Translations under genes and position numbers: made by a program
The notes under the pieces: generated by a model
Seen by the model: only the letters and a program-made list of their open reading frames with translations
The model's database searches: none
Told to the model about the DNA's origin: nothing
Part shown: piece by piece, positions 30,994 to 42,116 of the stretch
Layout: every line of letters starts with the position of its first letter
Position numbering within the stretch: the stretch's first letter is position 1
From: Chloroflexota bacterium
Lineage (GTDB): Bacteria; Chloroflexota; Dehalococcoidia; Lucifugimonadales; Lucifugimonadaceae
NCBI GenBank assembly: GCA_018650845.1
Contig: JABIFF010000012.1
Location: 124,001-188,000 of the forward strand
Direction: 5' to 3'
DNA: 64,000 bases

Positions 30994-32061
30994 TTACTCG
31001 CGACCGAGTAAGTTTTTTACCGTTCCAACAACGTCAGCCGGCTGAGGCATGAACTCTTGCTCTAGCGCACTGTTGTACGGAACCGGAGAGTGAGGCGAAG
31101 TTACACGCTTAACAGGGGCGTCGAGGTGATCGAATGCCTTGTCGGCGATAACAGCCGCAAACTCGGAAGCCATCGAGGCACGAGGGGTGTCCTCGTCGAC
31201 GATCACAACGTTGTTTGTCTTGGCAACTGACTCGATGAGGATGTCTTCGTCAAACGGTGAAAGGGACATCATGTCGATCACTTCAGCATCGATTCCGATT
31301 TCGGCAAGCTGTTCTGCAGCTTTCTGACAGACAACTGATGTGTACGACATTCCAACCAACGTAACGTCGGCTCCACGTCGCATGTATCGGCCCTTACCAA
31401 GTTCGATAACGTAATCCTCGTCAGGAACAAATCCTGTGAGGTTGATTAGCTTCTTGTCGTTCACGAGGAACACAGGGTCGTCGTCACGAATAGCGGCAGC
31501 GAGTAGGCCCTTTACCGAATAAGGATCGGAAGGAACCACTACCTTGAGACCAGGAATGTGCGCCAGCATCGAGTAGAAACTCTCGGAGTGCTGAGCAGCG
31601 TGCCCTGTGCCTGCGCCTGATCGTGCGAACAAAGTCAGTGGAACCTTAGTCTGACCACCGAACATGTAGCGACTCTTTGCTGCATTTGATAGCAGTTGGT
31701 CGAACGCCACAGTTACGAAGTCGAAGTACATCAGGTCGACCACTGGACGCATGCCAGTGAGTGCCGAACCTACAGCTGCACCAACGAATCCTGCTTCGGA
31801 AATAGGTGCATCACGAATGCGTTCAACGCCAAATTCCTGAACCAATCCCTTGGTAGCAGCGAACGGTCCGCCCCACGCATCGAGTGGCTCTTTGGTGTCT
31901 TTGTCGAATCCGCCTGAAATGTCTTCACCCATAAGGAAAACATCGTCGTCTCGGTTCATTTCAGCCCGAAGAGTGTCACGGAAAATGTCTCGGAATCTCA
32001 TTTCCGAGCCGGCAACACCCTCGTATCCGGGGCCTAGCGGGTTTGTTTGTGAGGTCGTCAT
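30994..32061 (-). CDS. 2-oxoacid dehydrogenase E1 component, beta subunit
   Basis: A 355-residue transketolase-like beta subunit: FLMGEDISGGFDKDTKEPLDAWGGPF, DAPISEAGFVGAAVGSALTGMRPVVDLMYFDFV, LFARSGAGTGHAAQHSESFYSMLAHIPGLKVVVPSDPYSVKGLL. These match PdhB/AcoB/BkdA2. With the alpha subunit upstream (46-bp gap) it forms the heterotetrameric E1 decarboxylase. No E2 or E3 gene is in the window, so pyruvate, acetoin or branched-chain specificity is undecided. Confidence 0.92.
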   Translation of the reverse strand: MTTSQTNPLGPGYEGVAGSEMRFRDIFRDTLRAEMNRDDDVFLMGEDISGGFDKDTKEPLDAWGGPFAATKGLVQEFGVERIRDAPISEAGFVGAAVGSALTGMRPVVDLMYFDFVTVAFDQLLSNAAKSRYMFGGQTKVPLTLFARSGAGTGHAAQHSESFYSMLAHIPGLKVVVPSDPYSVKGLLAAAIRDDDPVFLVNDKKLINLTGFVPDEDYVIELGKGRYMRRGADVTLVGMSYTSVVCQKAAEQLAEIGIDAEVIDMMSLSPFDEDILIESVAKTNNVVIVDEDTPRASMASEFAAVIADKAFDHLDAPVKRVTSPHSPVPYNSALEQEFMPQPADVVGTVKNLLGRE

Positions 32062-32107: not shown

Positions 32108-33106
32108 TTATCGCAGACCCGCAATTGGGTTGGAGTAGTTGACGTAAACATCGTCGTACAAAGTGGAGATGTCGGGCATAGGACTGCTAAGTGCGAACTC
32201 AACAGCGTGGAGCATCTCTTTTTCAATATCGTCACGGATGCTCTTCAGCTTCTTTTCCGTCATCAACTTCTGCTTGAGAACAGTTCGCTCGAAGTGCTTA
32301 ATCGCATCGAGGTTCTTGTAATACTCTTCTTCTTCCGGCTTGCGGTACTTGCTTGTATCGTCGGCGTGGAAGTGACCGTGGTAACGGTAAGTTTTCATTT
32401 CGATGAATGTTGGGCCTTCACCGGCACGTGCCCTGGCAATAGCTTCACCCGCTGCATCGTAAACAGCGAACACGTCCATGCCATCTACAACAACGCCGGG
32501 CATTCCGTAGCCCTCGGCTCGTGAGGCAATATCTTCAGCAGATACTGCGTACCAAGATGGAGTTGCTTCGGCATAGCCGTTGTTCTCGCAAGCGAAAATT
32601 ACTGGAAGCTTCCAGACTGAAGCGAGGTTCATAGCTTCGTGAAGTACGCCCTGTGAAGATGCGCCGTCACCGAAGAATGAAACTCCAACTGACTCGTTCT
32701 CGATGCCCTTGAGCTTTGCTGTCAAAGCCGCACCAACCGCGAGTGGAATCGACGCACCAACAATACCGTTAGCTCCGAGCATCCCTTTCGAGAAGTCGGA
32801 AATGTGCATCGATCCGCCCTTGCCGCCACACTGGCCTGTTGCCTTACCAAAGACTTCAGCCATCATTTTGTCGGTTTCGAGACCTTTGGAGATGCAGTGA
32901 CCGTGTCCACGGTGAGTTGAGCCGATCCAGTCCTTATCGGTTAGGTGCGCACAGATTCCGGTCGGAGGTGCTTCCTGCCCGTCAGACGTGTGAGCCACAC
33001 CCATCGAGTTTCCTTTAAGGGTCTGTTCGAGCATCGTCTCCTCGAAGCGGCGGATTCGATACATCGTGGTGTATATCCACTCCAGCTTCTCTTTGGAGAT
33101 ATCCAT
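32108..33106 (-). CDS. 2-oxoacid dehydrogenase E1 component, alpha subunit
   Basis: The start at 33106 (MDISKEKLEW, 332 aa) is chosen because GGAGG sits 9 bp upstream; a longer frame to 33163 lacks support. TPP-binding features are VSFFGDGASSQGVLHEAMNLASVWKLPVIFACENNGYAEATP (GDG...NN) and the preceding GQCGGKGGSMHI. The MxMKTYRYHGHFHADDTSKYR phosphorylation-loop-like region is typical of PdhA/AcoA. Partner of the downstream beta subunit. Confidence 0.92.
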   Translation of the reverse strand: MDISKEKLEWIYTTMYRIRRFEETMLEQTLKGNSMGVAHTSDGQEAPPTGICAHLTDKDWIGSTHRGHGHCISKGLETDKMMAEVFGKATGQCGGKGGSMHISDFSKGMLGANGIVGASIPLAVGAALTAKLKGIENESVGVSFFGDGASSQGVLHEAMNLASVWKLPVIFACENNGYAEATPSWYAVSAEDIASRAEGYGMPGVVVDGMDVFAVYDAAGEAIARARAGEGPTFIEMKTYRYHGHFHADDTSKYRKPEEEEYYKNLDAIKHFERTVLKQKLMTEKKLKSIRDDIEKEMLHAVEFALSSPMPDISTLYDDVYVNYSNPIAGLR

Positions 33107-33274
33107 CTTTAAGTGCCTCCGGCGTGCGATTTGCTTGAGCTGGAATATCTCCTGCTCAAGCACAAATATCAGATCAAGACGCGTGTTGGTTTCAGGCGAT
33201 CAAGTATCGGTCTGAGAAACAACAGTGAAACTTTAGCATTGAGAAGCCGTTCGCGTGCGTTTGAAATTGCCGCT

Positions 33275-34012
33275 TCAGTGAGATTCGTTAATCACGAGAT
33301 CAGCTTGAACAGCGGCAACAAAATTCTTGGGGCGGTCGACTGTTATGTTGATCACGCGGGAGGGAGAACCTCGTTTTACTAGTCCACGAGGATGAATTTT
33401 AGATTTCAGGAGGATAGTAACGTCTGCCTGACCAGCCGACGTAATCCAAGATTCCATCTCACCTGAATTGCCGATTTCAGAGCGAAGCCCGTCGCCGCCT
33501 TTGGTCGATTTAGCGACCCTAGCGGAAATGCTGGCGATTTCGTTCATCGGGACTATCACCTCGGCCATAATTCCGTACCGCAAGGTGAGACGCTCATCGC
33601 TGAATGAATGCGGCATCGTACGAATCGATGCATACATACCTGCAACCCAAAAGAGTCCGTAGATGCTAAACCCAGTCACCACCCATGCCACGGTCTGCGA
33701 TGGAATTAGCACGTGAACCAAAAATAGCTCAATCGGTCCGGTTACCATCGTGAATATCACCAGATATCCAAAGATTGACCTGTTCGCCGGGTAAAACTTG
33801 CTGGCATCACGCCGAGTAAACAGAAATCGCCAAACCGCTCGCCAAATTTCTAGTTCGGCAGTCACGAGTCGCAGTACCGGCTTCGGAATAACGCTTGAAC
33901 TAGATTCAGGAGTGCGCGATCGCTTCCGCTTGACGATCACGACGACAACGGTAAGAACGATCAGTATTTCGACAACGGCGGCTAGTTCCGCCATGAAGTC
34001 TGGCACTTTCAA
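33275..34012 (-). CDS. Membrane protein with PH-like domain, function unknown
   Basis: A 245-residue protein with three hydrophobic stretches: near the N-terminus (AELAAVVEILIVLTVVVVIV), about residues 85-105, and about 110-130. The C-terminal part (FSDERLTLRYGIMAEVIVPMNEIASISARV...RVINITVDRPKNFVAAV) has the alternating strand pattern of bacterial PH-like domains. It starts (TTG 34012) directly after the stop of the TrpB2-like gene, so the two are very likely translated from one message. No family can be named. Confidence 0.65.
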   Translation of the reverse strand: MKVPDFMAELAAVVEILIVLTVVVVIVKRKRSRTPESSSSVIPKPVLRLVTAELEIWRAVWRFLFTRRDASKFYPANRSIFGYLVIFTMVTGPIELFLVHVLIPSQTVAWVVTGFSIYGLFWVAGMYASIRTMPHSFSDERLTLRYGIMAEVIVPMNEIASISARVAKSTKGGDGLRSEIGNSGEMESWITSAGQADVTILLKSKIHPRGLVKRGSPSRVINITVDRPKNFVAAVQADLVINESH

Positions 34013-35377
34013 CTAGCTCCGACCGATAAATCGACCCAGCGATTTCTTCAGTGAAGCCTCTTCAGGTTTCTCGTCGTGCATAACGCCATCGAGTAGCGAA
34101 TCGTACGGCGATGACTCAGCGTTGATTGCTGGCGTAACCGTGAAGAGAATCGTATCGTCGGTGCCCTTTTCTTTAACACGCAACGCTTCCTCGATTACTT
34201 CTTTGACGGTGTACATGGCATGAGGTGAAAGAACGATTCCTTCAGCACGGGTGAACATCAGACCTGCACTGTACGATTCGATCTGACCATGGGCTACAGC
34301 CTCAATGTACTTTTCTCGATATAGCGAGGAAACGATTGGGGCAACTCCGTGATATCGCATGGCACCAGCGAGCACTCCCGGTGGTGCGTATTCACGACCC
34401 AGCGTGTACATCGGCACTTGCGGCATTAGGCCTGCGGCGTCGGCAGATTCTTCGGTGTAGACACCACGAGTCAGGCTTGGAGTGGAAGATTCCTCAACCG
34501 CCACAAATCTAGTACTCCGCCCTTGAATTCGTGCCGGTACGAACGGTGCAATAAGGCCACCAAAGTGAGAACCAGCTCCGATGGATCCGATTACGTGATC
34601 GGGCGCTTCGTTCACAGCAGCTAGCTGGCGTTGGGCTTCGAGTCCGACAATGGTTTGATGAATAAGGGTGTTGCCCATGAGAGTTGGAATTGCGAATTTC
34701 ACATCGGGATTTCGAGTCGCAACTTCATACGCTTCGGCAAGAGCTGTGGCTATGGAACCGGATTCAGGTCCTTGCTTCTTGTATTGAAGCTTGCCGACTC
34801 GGGTGCCCTCGGACGGACTTGCCTCGACATCGACTCCCCAAACACGGCCGTAAGCATCTCCCCAAGCTCGATCCGAATCGGGCTTTCGAACGCTGTACAC
34901 CTTGCTCTTCAAACCAAACAAAGATGCAGCATGACCGATAGCGCTTATCCACACGCCGCCAGCGCCACCGGTAACGATTCCATCTGCTCCGGCTTTCTTG
35001 GTGTAGAACGCTTGAGGAATGGCGGTGTTCGATTCATATGAACCGCTGGGACTACCGCCTTCCACTTTGTAATAGAGCTTGGCTGTTGTGCCGAGTTCTT
35101 TCTCCAATGCTGCCGCTCTGAACATAGGAGTTGGTCGCCACTGCTGATAAGCCTGCTTTACTTCCTTTGGAATGTTGAACGTGCGACTCTTGGCATTTAG
35201 TTCTTGCTCGATGATCTGTTTTGGAAACAGCGGTTCGAGTTCACGAGCCGTGATGGGATAGCCAGAAGGCGACATCATCGGCGGCACTCGGAATGGCAGA
35301 TCGGCCTCGACGTTGTACCAGCGAGACGGCATCTCTCTAGGACTCAACGTGATTCGATTGCCTGTGACTGTTGCCAT
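34013..35377 (-). CDS. TrpB2-like protein lacking the PLP lysine
   Basis: Start at ATG 35377 (MATVTGNRITL, 454 aa), preceded by AAGGAAT. The chain aligns along its length with TrpB2-type tryptophan synthase beta: RPTPMFRAAALEKELG, LMGNTLIHQTIVGLEAQRQL, GAGSHFGGL, PMYTLGREYAPP and AMRYHGVAPIVSSLYREKYIEAV. The catalytic core is changed: GSHKxNTA, whose lysine binds PLP, reads GSYESNTA (E115); TETGAGQ, with the catalytic glutamate, reads VTGGAGG (T136); and the C-terminal SGHG is missing. It probably cannot form the internal aldimine. No trpA or other trp gene is nearby. A membrane PH-like protein follows immediately. Confidence 0.88.
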   Translation of the reverse strand: MATVTGNRITLSPREMPSRWYNVEADLPFRVPPMMSPSGYPITARELEPLFPKQIIEQELNAKSRTFNIPKEVKQAYQQWRPTPMFRAAALEKELGTTAKLYYKVEGGSPSGSYESNTAIPQAFYTKKAGADGIVTGGAGGVWISAIGHAASLFGLKSKVYSVRKPDSDRAWGDAYGRVWGVDVEASPSEGTRVGKLQYKKQGPESGSIATALAEAYEVATRNPDVKFAIPTLMGNTLIHQTIVGLEAQRQLAAVNEAPDHVIGSIGAGSHFGGLIAPFVPARIQGRSTRFVAVEESSTPSLTRGVYTEESADAAGLMPQVPMYTLGREYAPPGVLAGAMRYHGVAPIVSSLYREKYIEAVAHGQIESYSAGLMFTRAEGIVLSPHAMYTVKEVIEEALRVKEKGTDDTILFTVTPAINAESSPYDSLLDGVMHDEKPEEASLKKSLGRFIGRS

Positions 35378-35643
35378 TATCGAGATATTCCTTAATTCAA
35401 AGCGGTCATCTGCTTTATTGCAACGAAGGTTATCGCGAATCCGTTTTGCCATTCGTTACGGAACGGGGCATTCGATGATTCGCAATGTTTCCCAACAATG
35501 GCATCCACGCCTCTCGACTGGAGTTGCGTTCCGAACTGAGGCCAAATTCTGGGCGACAGTACAATCCGAGCGATTGCGTCGCACGGGCGCGATCACTTCT
35601 TTGACCGCTGCAACGCCTAATTTCAAATCGAGTGTGGGTATAA

Positions 35644-37530
35644 ATGATTCGTCGAGTTACACCAAACCCTAAATTCGGAATTCTTCTGATTGCCATGACG
35701 TTAACTCTCGTTGCGGCAATTGCTTGCAGCGGTGGTGACCCCGAAGTTGGGCCTCAAGGATCGGCTGGCCCGCAAGGTAAAACCGGCGAAACTGGCCCAG
35801 CAGGATCGACCGGTCTTCAAGGATTCCCAGGACCTGCCGGACCTGAAGGTCCTCAGGGCGAAAAGGGTTCGGCCGGTGTCAAAGGTGACGATGGCAGATC
35901 TGGTGTTTTGGCGATTGGGGCAGGTCTCACAACCTCAGGATCGATAGAGGGTGATGTTGCATTCGTCGATTTCGCAGGAACCGGAGAAGCCGACACTGCG
36001 GCAAGAAGCGACCATGATCATGACTCCGATTATGTGACAACACGCGCTCTTGCCGAGGGTTCAGCCGATGTCGCATGGGGAGGGCTCATCGGAATACCAG
36101 GTGATCTCGGCTCAGGCGGCGGCGGTGGAGATAGCGATACTGTCGAGTGGGATTCGATTTTGAATCGCCCGGCAGGACTCGACGATGGCGATGATGGGCT
36201 GACTTCGGTCGATTGGAATGATCTGCAAAACCGACCTTCGGCCCTCAACACCACTCTCGGTGGAATGAATTGTGGATTCAATGAAGTAGTGATCCATAAC
36301 GGTTCAACTTGGGTATGTGGAGACGCAGGTCCGTCGAGTGGAGATTACGTTGCATCAGATCAGTCATGTGGTTCAGGATTTGTAGCAACCGGGGTCGATT
36401 CATCAGGGAACCTTCTCTGTGTAACGATTTCTTCCAGTGATTCGGTTCCGTACCAGCGTGGAAAGCATTTGATCACCACATTAGCGATAGGTCCCGGTGA
36501 CGCCGGTTTATGGAATTCGGTCACAGTGGGCGACGACGGCCTTCCGGTCATAGCGTACGAAGCGAGCAATTCGCTCTACCTAGCAAAATGTGATGACGTG
36601 GCGTGTACGGCATCCACACCTTCGATAGTCGAAGCTACCGGATTAGGCGATCTTCATGCATCTGTGATTATCGGCACCGATGGACTGCCATTGATCTCAT
36701 ACAGAGACTCCCTCAACAGCGATTTCAAAATTGCGCATTGCCAAACCAGCACTTGCGACACCAGTGCGAAAACTACGATTGAAGGAACCGGAAATGTCGG
36801 TGCATATTCATCGATCGTAATTGGCACTGACGGGCTTGGAATCGCCAGCTACTACGACGCTACGAACGGCAACCTGAAAGTAGCCCATTGCAACAACACA
36901 GCGTGTACTTCTGCTGACATCAATGTTGTTGATGAAATTGGCGACGTTGGGCAGTACACATCGATAACTATTGGCGCCGACGGATTCCCACTGATCAGCT
37001 ACTACGATGTTTCGAATGCCGATCTAAAAGTAGCCCATTGCACGAACGCTACATGCTCGACAAGCACGAACGAAACGATCGATTCCAGCGGCGACGTTGG
37101 CAAGAGTTCATCGATAGTCATAGGAATTGACGGTCGAGGGCTTATTAGCTACTTCGACGTGGTCAGCAATGACCTCAAGATGGCGCACTGCACTACGATT
37201 TCCTGTTCGGTTTCGACTACAGCATCGGCGGTCACAAGTGGCGGCGTGGGGAACTGGAATTCGCTGACAATAGGTACTGATGGCAGAGCTATCGTCAGCT
37301 ACGCAGATTCGTTCAACGGCAATCTTGAAATCGCTCACTGCGAAGATATTGCATGCACTAGCGCAACATCTGTAGACGCAGACACAGATTCGCTAGTTGG
37401 ACAGCACACAGCCATTACTATCGGAGCCGATGGTCTACCGCTGGTTATCTACCACGATGTGACTTCAAGGAATTTGAAGGCAGTGCACTGTTCAAACACC
37501 TACTGCCTTCCAAACGTTAGGAATCGCTAG
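35644..37530 (+). CDS. Lipoprotein with collagen-like stalk and seven 50-residue repeats
   Basis: 628 residues. The signal sequence ends in the lipobox AIAC (C28). Residues ~36-87 are uninterrupted Gly-x-y triplets (GPQGSAGPQGKTGETGPAG...), a bacterial collagen-like segment. After an Asp/Gly-rich linker, seven tandem units occupy ~290-628 with a strict 50-residue period: the core (V/I)xIGxDGxPxISY falls near 293, 341, 391, 441, 491, 541 and 591, each followed by a HC-x4-C pair (C316/C321, then every 50). Seven units suggest a closed beta-propeller with a disulfide in each blade. Probably a surface-exposed binding protein; ligand unknown. Confidence 0.85.
   Translation: MIRRVTPNPKFGILLIAMTLTLVAAIACSGGDPEVGPQGSAGPQGKTGETGPAGSTGLQGFPGPAGPEGPQGEKGSAGVKGDDGRSGVLAIGAGLTTSGSIEGDVAFVDFAGTGEADTAARSDHDHDSDYVTTRALAEGSADVAWGGLIGIPGDLGSGGGGGDSDTVEWDSILNRPAGLDDGDDGLTSVDWNDLQNRPSALNTTLGGMNCGFNEVVIHNGSTWVCGDAGPSSGDYVASDQSCGSGFVATGVDSSGNLLCVTISSSDSVPYQRGKHLITTLAIGPGDAGLWNSVTVGDDGLPVIAYEASNSLYLAKCDDVACTASTPSIVEATGLGDLHASVIIGTDGLPLISYRDSLNSDFKIAHCQTSTCDTSAKTTIEGTGNVGAYSSIVIGTDGLGIASYYDATNGNLKVAHCNNTACTSADINVVDEIGDVGQYTSITIGADGFPLISYYDVSNADLKVAHCTNATCSTSTNETIDSSGDVGKSSSIVIGIDGRGLISYFDVVSNDLKMAHCTTISCSVSTTASAVTSGGVGNWNSLTIGTDGRAIVSYADSFNGNLEIAHCEDIACTSATSVDADTDSLVGQHTAITIGADGLPLVIYHDVTSRNLKAVHCSNTYCLPNVRNR
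36514..37510 (+). repeat. 150-bp period coding tandem repeat (seven units)
   Basis: The seven blade-like units of the lipoprotein repeat every 150 bp. DNA identity between units is imperfect, so this is an old protein-level duplication, not a recent satellite. Confidence 0.85.
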
Positions 37531-39014: not shown

Positions 39015-39719
39015 TTGGCGTCGGAAAACGATAACTCGAACTCCAAATCGTCATCTTTACCCAAGATGCTCGTACCGGTACTGGCTATTGGTGGCCTCGG
39101 TGTAGTTGCAGTTATGGGTGTAGTAGCAGCGTTCGTTATTACGGGCTGGATCGGGCAACCGGTTCCAGTACTCGGTTTCGAACAGACGTTTGACCAGCCG
39201 ATTGACTTCCCTCACACCGTTCACGCTTCACTGAAGCAGCTCGACAGAGTTGCTGCTGATGGCCAGACGATGGAAGGTCTTGGTCTCGACTGTACTTTCT
39301 GTCACCGAACGGTAACCACACAGGCAAACGCTGGCGTTCCACCTGTAGGTTTCTGTGCAACTTGTCACCAAGTGATTGGTGCCGAGGACAACGTTCAGTT
39401 GACCATTTTGCGTGACGCTGCCGACATCGTTGGCGACGACGGCGCAGAGCCAGTCAACTGGCAGCGTGTCCACCGTCTTCCAGACCACGTTCGTTTTGTA
39501 CACGAACCTCACATTCGTTATCTAACTGCTAACCCATCAGAAGTGAAAAACACTACTGATGGCGTTACTGAAGGCCCATCCGGCGTCTGCTCAACCTGCC
39601 ACGGTAACGTCGCAGCTATGCAGCAGGTCGAACAGGTCGAATCACTCAAAATGGGACAGTGTGTTGATTGCCACCGTGACAACGGTGCACCAACAGATTG
39701 TGCCGCTTGCCACTACTAG
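39015..39719 (+). CDS. actA: Alternative complex III pentahaem cytochrome c subunit
   Basis: 234 residues from a TTG start with GGAAAGAA just upstream. One N-terminal membrane helix (LVPVLAIGGLGVVAVMGVVAAFVIT) anchors a periplasmic domain with five CxxCH haem sites at residues 93, 114, 192, 216 and 229, plus extra histidines (PHTVH, VHEPH) as likely distal ligands. This is the ActA pattern of the menaquinol:electron-acceptor oxidoreductase that replaces bc1. It opens the act cluster and depends on the Ccm genes downstream for haem attachment. Confidence 0.93.
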   Translation: MASENDNSNSKSSSLPKMLVPVLAIGGLGVVAVMGVVAAFVITGWIGQPVPVLGFEQTFDQPIDFPHTVHASLKQLDRVAADGQTMEGLGLDCTFCHRTVTTQANAGVPPVGFCATCHQVIGAEDNVQLTILRDAADIVGDDGAEPVNWQRVHRLPDHVRFVHEPHIRYLTANPSEVKNTTDGVTEGPSGVCSTCHGNVAAMQQVEQVESLKMGQCVDCHRDNGAPTDCAACHY

Positions 39720-39803
39720 GCGACTTTAGGACCACTTAAGCATCCATACGGGTTTACCCGGTCGCAGCCTCAAAACTGTGACAACAGGAATAGCACTGAC
39801 CAG

Positions 39804-42116
39804 ATGAAGCTAAATCGACGAGAATTCCTAGCGCTTACCGGTAAAACGGCAGCCGGAGCTGTGATATTCGCAGCTTGCGGACTACCTGAGCGCGAGCTAA
39901 TTGTTCAGAGCCCTGTAGACCTTCCAGAGGACTTAGTACGTGGTGAGGACGCTTGGTTCGCCACTTCCATGGGAGATTTCTCAAACGGCGATGGCGTGCT
40001 AGTTCGTGTCATGCAGGGACGGGCTAAGAAGATCGAGGGAAACCCCGACCACCCTATTACCCGCGGTAAGGCAACTGCTCGTTACGACGCAGTTCTTCAG
40101 CTTCTCTACCACCCTGACCGAATTGCCGAGCCACAGCTCCGTTATTCAAAGGCAGGAAACCTGGTTGATATTTCTTGGGATCAGGCTGATGCTCGATTCA
40201 AGGAAGCCCTATCTAACGCCGATGGCGCACTGACGGTTGTAACCAACCCTCTACGTGGTCACCTCGGAGCTGTTGCAACGAACTTCGCTGCACAGTACAA
40301 CGGCAAGCACATGGCGTTCGACCCAGTCGAGCAAGGTGTATTGCACGGAGCAGTAAAGTCGGTTCTCGGCCAAGACCAGCTCCCTACATTTGATATTGCA
40401 AACGCACAGACAGTTCTTTCGTTCGGAGCCGACTGGCTCGGTACTTGGGGATCACCTGTGCAGTTTGGTGTGAAGTACGGCGAATTCCGTGAACAGGACG
40501 ACCGCGGTTACTTCATTCACGCAGAGCCACGAATGTCTCTCACAGCAGCAGCAGCCGATCTCTGGTTGGCCCCTGTTCCTGGTACCGAGGGTCACCTTGC
40601 TCTAGCCATTGCTTCGGTAATCATCGAAGAAGGGCTAGCAAGCCCACAGAACGTCGCAGCATTTGAAGCGGCAGTTCCCGGTGGTGTAAGCGGAGTAACG
40701 CTTTCTGACGCAGCTGCTCGAACGGGTGTCGATGAGCACCGAATCGAAAAGGCAGCAAAACATTTTGCAGAGCACACACCTTCTGTCGCCTTCGGTGGCG
40801 GTTCGGCTGGTGCTCACACTAACGGTAGCTTCAACCTTGGAGCAATCTTCGCTCTGAACATTCTGGTTGGTGCTGTCGACGCTAAGGGTGGAGTTACATC
40901 CAACCCTGGCTCAGCTATCGATGGTTTGTCAGCTTCGGCTACCGGCGCATCGTTTGCTGATTGGGAAGCCGAGCTTGCTGAATGGCGAGCAGGAAACGTT
41001 GAAACTGTGATCATTCGTGGTGCAGACATCGTTCACGGCATGCCTAACTCTGTCGCAATTCGTGAGGCACTTGAGCACGTTCCTAACGTAATCGCTTTCG
41101 GTGCAGTTCTCGACGACACAATGGACTTCGCTGATCTCGTACTTCCAGAAGAAACTTTCTTGGAGTCGTGGGGCATCGATATTCCAGAACCGGGTCCTGG
41201 TTATCAGGTTGTTGGTACACAGCAGCCGGTTGTAGGTCCGACTATTTCACACGACGAATCAGGGCTCATCAGTGATGCTCGTGGATTCGGCGACACACTG
41301 CTTGATATGTCCGACGGTTCTTACGGTCGAGACATGGAAAGCTTGGTACGAGGTTCGCTTTCGGATCTTCACGACACAGGTCGTGGTTCTGTTTCTGCTT
41401 CCTCTGCAGCCCTATTCACCAACGGTGCATTGCAACGTGGTGGTTGGTGGGACACCAGCAAGAGTGGTTCAGCTTCAACCGGTCGGGTAAGTGCATCACG
41501 AGGAAGCGCAAGCTACTCGAGCACCGACGGTACCGGCGAAGGCACGAGCTTCCACCTCGTTCCTTTCGTGTCGAACTCACTCGGTGATGGCAAGCTCGCT
41601 GCTGCTCCATGGGCACAGCAGACTCCTGACCCTATTTCATCGGCTTCATGGTCAACTTGGGCAGAGATCAACAGCATTCAGGCTGATGAGCTCGGAATCA
41701 AAGAGGGCGATGTCCTCAGGGTTCGTTCAACCTCAGGTGAGATCGAAGCTCTCGCATACCCGCATCCAGGTGTTCGCCCCGGTGTGATCGGCATCCCTAT
41801 GGGACAAGGTCACCACGAAGGCGGTCGATACGCTAAGGATCGTGGTTCAAATGTTCTTTCAATTCTCGTTGACGAGAAAGACGCCGAGACTGGCGCTCTT
41901 GCATGGGCTGCAACCCGAGTAACGGTTCAGCGTGCAGGCAAGCGAGTCAAGGTTCCTAAGTTCGAAGGTAACGTAGTAGCCCGACCAGTTGAACCAGGTG
42001 TACCTGTTCTTGTGGTTGGTGTTGGCGAAACTGCTCATGATGCGCAGGAAGCTAACCACCACGAGTACCAAAAACAGTTCCTCCTCGAAGGTGAGGGAGC
42101 TGACGACCATGAGTAA
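39804..42116 (+). CDS. actB1: Alternative complex III molybdopterin-oxidoreductase-like subunit
   Basis: 770 residues homologous to the large subunit of molybdopterin oxidoreductases, but in this complex the domain carries no molybdenum cofactor. The N-terminus has a twin-arginine signal (NRREFLALTG) whose hydrophobic part ends in a lipobox-like FAACG, suggesting Tat export with lipid anchoring. Features include VRVMQGRAKKIEGNPDHPITRGK and TRVTVQRAG near the end. In Rhodothermus this region is fused to the iron-sulfur domain; here ActB is split into two genes 42 bp apart. Ser/Gly-rich loops occur around residues 515-570. Confidence 0.92.
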   Translation: MKLNRREFLALTGKTAAGAVIFAACGLPERELIVQSPVDLPEDLVRGEDAWFATSMGDFSNGDGVLVRVMQGRAKKIEGNPDHPITRGKATARYDAVLQLLYHPDRIAEPQLRYSKAGNLVDISWDQADARFKEALSNADGALTVVTNPLRGHLGAVATNFAAQYNGKHMAFDPVEQGVLHGAVKSVLGQDQLPTFDIANAQTVLSFGADWLGTWGSPVQFGVKYGEFREQDDRGYFIHAEPRMSLTAAAADLWLAPVPGTEGHLALAIASVIIEEGLASPQNVAAFEAAVPGGVSGVTLSDAAARTGVDEHRIEKAAKHFAEHTPSVAFGGGSAGAHTNGSFNLGAIFALNILVGAVDAKGGVTSNPGSAIDGLSASATGASFADWEAELAEWRAGNVETVIIRGADIVHGMPNSVAIREALEHVPNVIAFGAVLDDTMDFADLVLPEETFLESWGIDIPEPGPGYQVVGTQQPVVGPTISHDESGLISDARGFGDTLLDMSDGSYGRDMESLVRGSLSDLHDTGRGSVSASSAALFTNGALQRGGWWDTSKSGSASTGRVSASRGSASYSSTDGTGEGTSFHLVPFVSNSLGDGKLAAAPWAQQTPDPISSASWSTWAEINSIQADELGIKEGDVLRVRSTSGEIEALAYPHPGVRPGVIGIPMGQGHHEGGRYAKDRGSNVLSILVDEKDAETGALAWAATRVTVQRAGKRVKVPKFEGNVVARPVEPGVPVLVVGVGETAHDAQEANHHEYQKQFLLEGEGADDHE

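Follow-up and report, generated by a model that had tools for sequence, protein, structure and literature searches.

A TrpB2-like protein of Chloroflexota with glutamate in place of the PLP-binding lysine

The window, by which we mean the whole stretch of 64,000 nucleotides analysed here (contig JABIFF010000012.1, positions 124,001 to 188,000), carries on its reverse strand a gene for a TrpB2-like protein that has glutamate at the position of the lysine forming the Schiff base with PLP (Table 1). We refer to it and its relatives as Lys-less, and to the orthologues in the genus of the source genome and in a second genus as the target clade. The longest open reading frame (34013-35452, reverse strand, 479 residues) opens at an upstream ATG. 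The start at 35377, chosen in the initial annotation, was nevertheless preferred, because an ATG stands at this position in 14 of the 14 orthologues printed, preceded by AAGGA in 8 and by a close variant in 4 (by-eye counts, with L014 and L024 shown beginning a few codons further in).

Downstream on the same strand lie an open reading frame for a PH-like membrane protein and the genes for both E1 subunits of a 2-oxoacid dehydrogenase. E1 alpha scored 342.5 bits against TIGR03182, under the cut-off of 393.85, and E1 beta scored 321.6 bits against NF006667, for which the cut-off is 321. The divergent gene upstream (35644-37530, forward strand) encodes 628 residues, among them a run of collagen repeats recognised by Pfam (Collagen) and a long region of internal repetition. 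Its protein cluster occurs at 14 of the 16 loci of the genus and at none of the 5 of the second genus. Beyond this gene, at 39015-42116 on the forward strand, are genes for a multihaem-type cytochrome and a molybdopterin-type oxidoreductase, which resemble those of alternative complex III; similar frames adjoin E1-alpha in several of the 20 E1-alpha loci compared. No Rfam element reached the gathering score between 30000 and 40000.

Table 1. Features at the Lys-less locus (positions in the window)
Feature	Position	Strand	Remark
Lys-less TrpB2-like gene	34013..35377	-	454 aa
AAGGA, ribosome-binding-like site	35389..35393	-	label inferred from sequence
Codon GAA, Glu115 (ORF E140)	35033..35035	-	at PLP Schiff-base Lys position; Tyr before it replaces His
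Codon GGT, Gly137 (ORF G162)	34967..34969	-	at catalytic Glu position
GAGSH	34565..34579	-	phosphate-loop remnant; GGGSN in most Lys-type rows
TPAI	34124..34135	-	replaces C-terminal S/C-GHG
PH-like membrane protein ORF	33275..34012	-	directly downstream; not conserved
E1 alpha gene, 2-oxoacid (pyruvate-type) dehydrogenase	32108..33163	-	conserved downstream neighbour
E1 beta gene, 2-oxoacid (pyruvate-type) dehydrogenase	30994..32061	-	conserved downstream neighbour

That the chain follows TrpB2 from end to end, as initially proposed, was borne out by family models, by alignments and by the predicted fold. NF009057, named 'TrpB-like PLP-dependent enzyme', matched with 452.5 bits over 437 residues, above its cut-off of 366. 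TIGR01415 gave 390.1 bits, under its cut-off of 518.85; Pfam PALP was matched as well, and the TrpB1 model TIGR00263 reached merely 54.7 bits. The phmmer alignments with the chains of 6hul, 4qys and 6hte were ungapped across both active-site motifs. An AlphaFold model built on a 128-row alignment, which replaced a run on 15 rows with pLDDT 62.1, had pLDDT 91.9 and pTM 0.93, and its best PDB match was 6hul_B (TM 0.86 by query length, 34% identity). The TrpB2 fold is confidently predicted to be retained. As Lys-less proteins exceed the NF009057 cut-off, that model would label them PLP-dependent enzymes, and metabolic reconstructions for uncultured Chloroflexota would be led astray.

We then inspected the pocket through alignments, reading the aligned residues by the roles generally given to them in TrpB proteins. 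The TrpB2 motif GSHKxNTA reads GSYESNTA in the target protein, so that Glu115 replaces the PLP lysine, just as first described. The catalytic glutamate has gone too; the residue named in its place, Thr136, was off by one, since both the phmmer and the 128-row alignments put Gly137 in that column. The reported loss of the C-terminal SGHG also held: at the S/C-GHG position, presumably the site of the PLP ring nitrogen, target-clade rows read TPAI (the target protein itself), TPAV, TPSV or TSSV. The phosphate loop and core had been called well kept; the fold is predicted to be retained and part of the phosphate loop remains, with GAGSH standing in place of GGGSN in 11 of 11 target-clade rows. The Trp after the carboxylate loop, RPT and RYHG are retained.

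The 128 rows were divided into groups by the residue at the lysine column, which is Lys in 107, Glu in 20 and Gln in one. Every one of the 107 Lys-bearing rows has His before the lysine, and none departs from the catalytic Glu or from the T, G, A and Q of the carboxylate loop. The 21 Lys-less rows all carry Gly or Ala in the catalytic Glu column, and V, L, E or D where the carboxylate loop otherwise has Gln. All 11 target-clade rows have Tyr-Glu at the lysine motif and GGAGG followed by V or L instead of ETGAGQ, and the phosphate loop of the outer members, those outside the target clade, is GGGS or SGGS followed by A, G or N. Outside the motifs, S257T, L365M and H414Y fully separate Lys and Lys-less rows. 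The single Gln belongs to L092 (G107:C97), where the motif is GSHQMNTA; an acidic residue at the lysine position is therefore not absolute. These results show that nearly every alignable PLP contact is changed in the target protein, and that the replacement is real and conserved. The Lys-less clade contrasts in this with a 2007 study (PMC1854888), the accessible part of which describes H81, K82 and S371 as strictly conserved in TrpB1 and TrpB2.

Conservation of the glutamate was examined in 100 genomes including the source genome. Of the 18 further genomes from the genus, 15 hold a copy (82-95% identity), as do all 5 sampled from the second genus (61-63% identity, one a fragment). Close homologues all bearing lysine had been foreseen as the sign of an error or a single decaying copy; instead, Glu occupies the column in every one of the 21 orthologous rows, which come from two genera (the target protein, 15 from the genus, and four full sequences and one fragment from the second). 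When 250 genomes from the order were scanned with an exact DNA pattern for GxYExNTA, 24 matched: 16 of the 19 in the genus, 6 of the 7 in the second genus, G084 and G872. G084 holds a more distant true member; the match in G872 and a second one in G004 are chance, being without TrpB2 similarity. The codon is GAA or GAG depending on the genome, amid synonymous differences within the same motif. There is no copy in G001, G003 or G006, three genomes of the genus, and the gene is thus dispensable. Its median pairwise dN/dS was 0.028, from 47 of 120 pairs with a high median dS of 2.3, the others being dropped with dS saturated or under 0.05. The values for comparison genes were 0.039 for Lys-type TrpB2 (14 of 15 pairs), 0.038 for E1-alpha (74 of 105) and 0.035 for E1-beta (65 of 105). 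The fold is under strong purifying selection, in agreement with the early view that the gene is not a decaying pseudogene.

The Lys-less subfamily extends beyond the two genera. When 393 genomes from the class were searched with a profile and the matches with a locus were counted, 30 loci were listed, 15 of them without Lys and 8 of these 15 outside both genera. Further members were added from G021, G031 and G084 of the 100-genome set and from G301, whose copy is truncated. A tree of 81 of the 128 rows (all 21 Lys-less rows, 20 with Glu and one with Gln, and 60 of the 107 Lys-type rows), computed without the motif columns by a quick method, unrooted and with no bootstrap, placed the Lys-less rows on one side of a single branch with SH-aLRT 99. 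With the TrpB1 of the source genome as outgroup and the motif columns masked (54 rows), they again formed one group among the Lys types, with the root unsure because the outgroup branch is 7.06 long. The subfamily is uncommon within its class: of 294 genomes from the class, 9 matched the DNA pattern for the Glu motif, and among the best 30 loci from 400 genomes of the phylum only the target gene was without Lys. The same pattern matched 0 of 95, 0 of 119, 0 of 119 and 0 of 120 genomes in four other phyla; as it requires Glu and a V or I codon and misses G107 (Gln, Leu) among the same 294, absence from those phyla is not proven. Among the matches listed for named genomes, 80 TrpB2 loci gave no printed non-Lys row, in a reading that would silently skip any row without the motif columns.

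Turning to gene neighbourhoods, tblastn detected both E1-alpha and E1-beta in 20 of 21 target-clade loci, the contig of the remaining one (L065) coming to an end. By ORF clusters the pair was recognised in 15 of 16 genus and 4 of 5 second-genus loci, following on the same strand wherever ORF picking shows them; at L075 an opposite-strand frame was picked at E1-alpha, and L065 and L077 reach contig ends. In the comparison of 20 E1-alpha loci, several of which end close to E1, E1-alpha was also present without the Lys-less gene, in G006 and in other genera (for example G022, G023, G024, G042 and G044). The linkage may therefore be one of inherited position only; the gene is accessory, and synteny alone is no proof of joint function. 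G001 and G003 have no close E1-beta (best about 44%). The longest frame of the PH-like protein, which starts with TTG and has no NCBIfam or Pfam match, lies 0 bp from the Lys-less gene, the direct junction noted at first. The protein is not supported as a conserved partner, since copies were found solely in the source genome, in G013 (59% identical, between the gene and E1-alpha) and, split, beside E1-alpha in G007 among the loci compared.

The outer members have other neighbours, which vary between subclades. In 11 outer loci (G301 excluded), MscS was found in 6 and OtsA and OtsB in 3. Of 20 Lys-type control loci from the same class, none had MscS, OtsA or OtsB, one had E1-alpha and one E1-beta; among 80 Lys-type loci of named genomes the counts were 0 for MscS, 0 for OtsA, 1 for OtsB and 1 for E1-alpha. 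For MscS, a comparison chosen after the neighbours had been seen, the difference from the 20 controls gave p 0.0006, or p 0.005 without the two loci that were query sources. All three genes lie near the Lys-less gene in L078, L243 and L244, and MscS alone in L245. The MscS and TrpB2-like frames run end to end on one strand in L078 and L245, and a TrkA_C-domain gene stands between them in L244. L244 and L249 share a wider block of aroC, aroE, MscS, ruvX and C47, the two chorismate-pathway genes being confirmed in L249 and represented by the same clusters (44 and 45) in L244. Because of this shared block, and because L251 and L252 are close relatives, the MscS cases are not all independent.

The source genome also carries an intact TrpB1 (GAHKINSA, ETGAG, GGGSN, SGRG) and a Lys-type TrpB2. 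No Lys-type TrpB2 match was found in 7 of the 16 genus genomes with the Lys-less gene, which are drafts 84-92% complete. In G013 the Lys-type TrpB2 appears as two separate frames (L057, G013:C1:62500-65300) and the Lys-less paralogue is intact.

Since the target protein no longer has what covalent PLP chemistry requires, a re-purposed and probably PLP-free protein, as envisaged from the start, is the best reading of these sequences. In its specific form, a pseudoenzyme whose re-used pocket serves a ligand-binding regulator, we regard this reading as moderately probable. A TrpB2 paralogue would have lost its PLP-holding and PLP-using residues, most simply once, in the ancestor of this Chloroflexota subfamily, while strong purifying selection maintained the fold. 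In its altered form the pocket most likely takes up a small ligand without PLP and without a covalent bond, and the protein may partner the products of neighbouring genes as a regulator or sensor, possibly E1-alpha/beta in the target clade and the MscS channel with the trehalose genes in some outer members. Counting against this reading are the dispensability of the gene, the E1 loci without it, the varying neighbours, the one Gln member, the 5 of 11 outer loci without MscS and the two class controls with an E1 subunit gene; moreover, the glycine-rich phosphate loop is in large part still there, where PLP or a different phosphate ligand might be held. A bolder version, rather doubtful and the more so because the MscS loci are not all independent, sees a PLP-free fold type II subfamily, arisen once in Chloroflexota, of metabolite or osmolyte sensors, tied to MscS and trehalose synthesis in outer members and, in the SAR202-type branch, to 2-oxoacid oxidation at its E1 step.

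The strong constraint on the gene would suit a re-purposed enzyme, our main rival explanation though an unlikely one, in which the TrpB2 fold has taken up a reaction independent of PLP and Glu115 serves as acid/base, nucleophile or metal ligand. Among the 21 Lys-less tree rows 20 have retained Glu, E or D stands at the Gln site in 10 of 10 outer rows, and the outer loop has turned acidic, its Ala site being mostly occupied by N, D or E; however, one member has Gln at the lysine position, the other acidic residues are missing from the target clade, where G and V or L stand instead, and no new conserved catalytic pair is evident in the 128-row alignment. Improbable in our view is continued non-covalent binding of PLP or of some other vitamer, by a PLP carrier or an enzyme using preformed aldimines. 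The partly retained phosphate loop (GAGSH, or GGGS or SGGS in outer rows) would allow it, as would the Thr kept at the ring-nitrogen site in the target clade, or Ser/Thr in some outer rows, but all 11 target-clade rows differ from the Lys type at the lysine, the His before it, the carboxylate loop, the Asn of the phosphate loop and GHG, and H81, K82 and S371 are described as strictly conserved in TrpB1 and TrpB2 (PMC1854888, in the part available).

Sequencing error, pseudogene decay or an alignment artefact has a negligible chance: nothing in its favour was found, the Glu motif recurs across both genera with GAA or GAG as its codon amid synonymous differences, and a shifted alignment with another lysine filling the site is ruled out by the 107 of 128 rows that have Lys in that very column. 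TrpB proteins are dimers, and as the source genome holds both genes, an inactive subunit pairing with the Lys-type TrpB2 is conceivable; we think it very unlikely, for the seven genomes without a Lys-type match mean that such pairing is not obligate, unless all seven are assembly gaps. Just as remote is an allosteric activator of TrpA giving free indole, a role known for a catalytically dead TrpB paralogue of eudicots (PMC12727527, in its accessible text) and one with which the aroC and aroE clusters in L244 and L249 would agree. The plant protein derives from TrpB1 and ours from TrpB2, the accessible part of PMC1854888 has operon-based proteins interacting with TrpA and the target gene lies outside a trp operon, and a partial search recognised no trp gene among the neighbours printed.

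A Lys to Glu clade maintained in this way shows that the fold can lose its cofactor site and yet be kept, and simple biochemistry is able to test the PLP-free reading. In a literature search with most subscription journals outside its scope, we found no description of a Lys-less TrpB2, and PMC12727527 was the only close paper. Compared with TrpB2 (NF009057, TIGR01415; PDB 6hul, 4qys and 6hte; COG1350 in PMC1854888 as far as its text was available), the target protein is alike from end to end in sequence and predicted fold, and unlike in having no PLP lysine, catalytic Glu or GHG and in its altered carboxylate and phosphate loops. The eudicot TSB-like pseudoenzyme, according to the accessible text of PMC12727527, has lost its catalytic Glu and activates TrpA. 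That text stresses E190A and D386E and reports no loss of the PLP lysine. The plant protein is TrpB1-derived, whereas the target groups with TrpB2 rows in the outgroup tree, and its catalytic Glu has become mostly Ala, where the target has Gly and the outer members Ala. Both are nonetheless TrpB paralogues in which the catalytic Glu has been replaced and which are kept beside an active TrpB.
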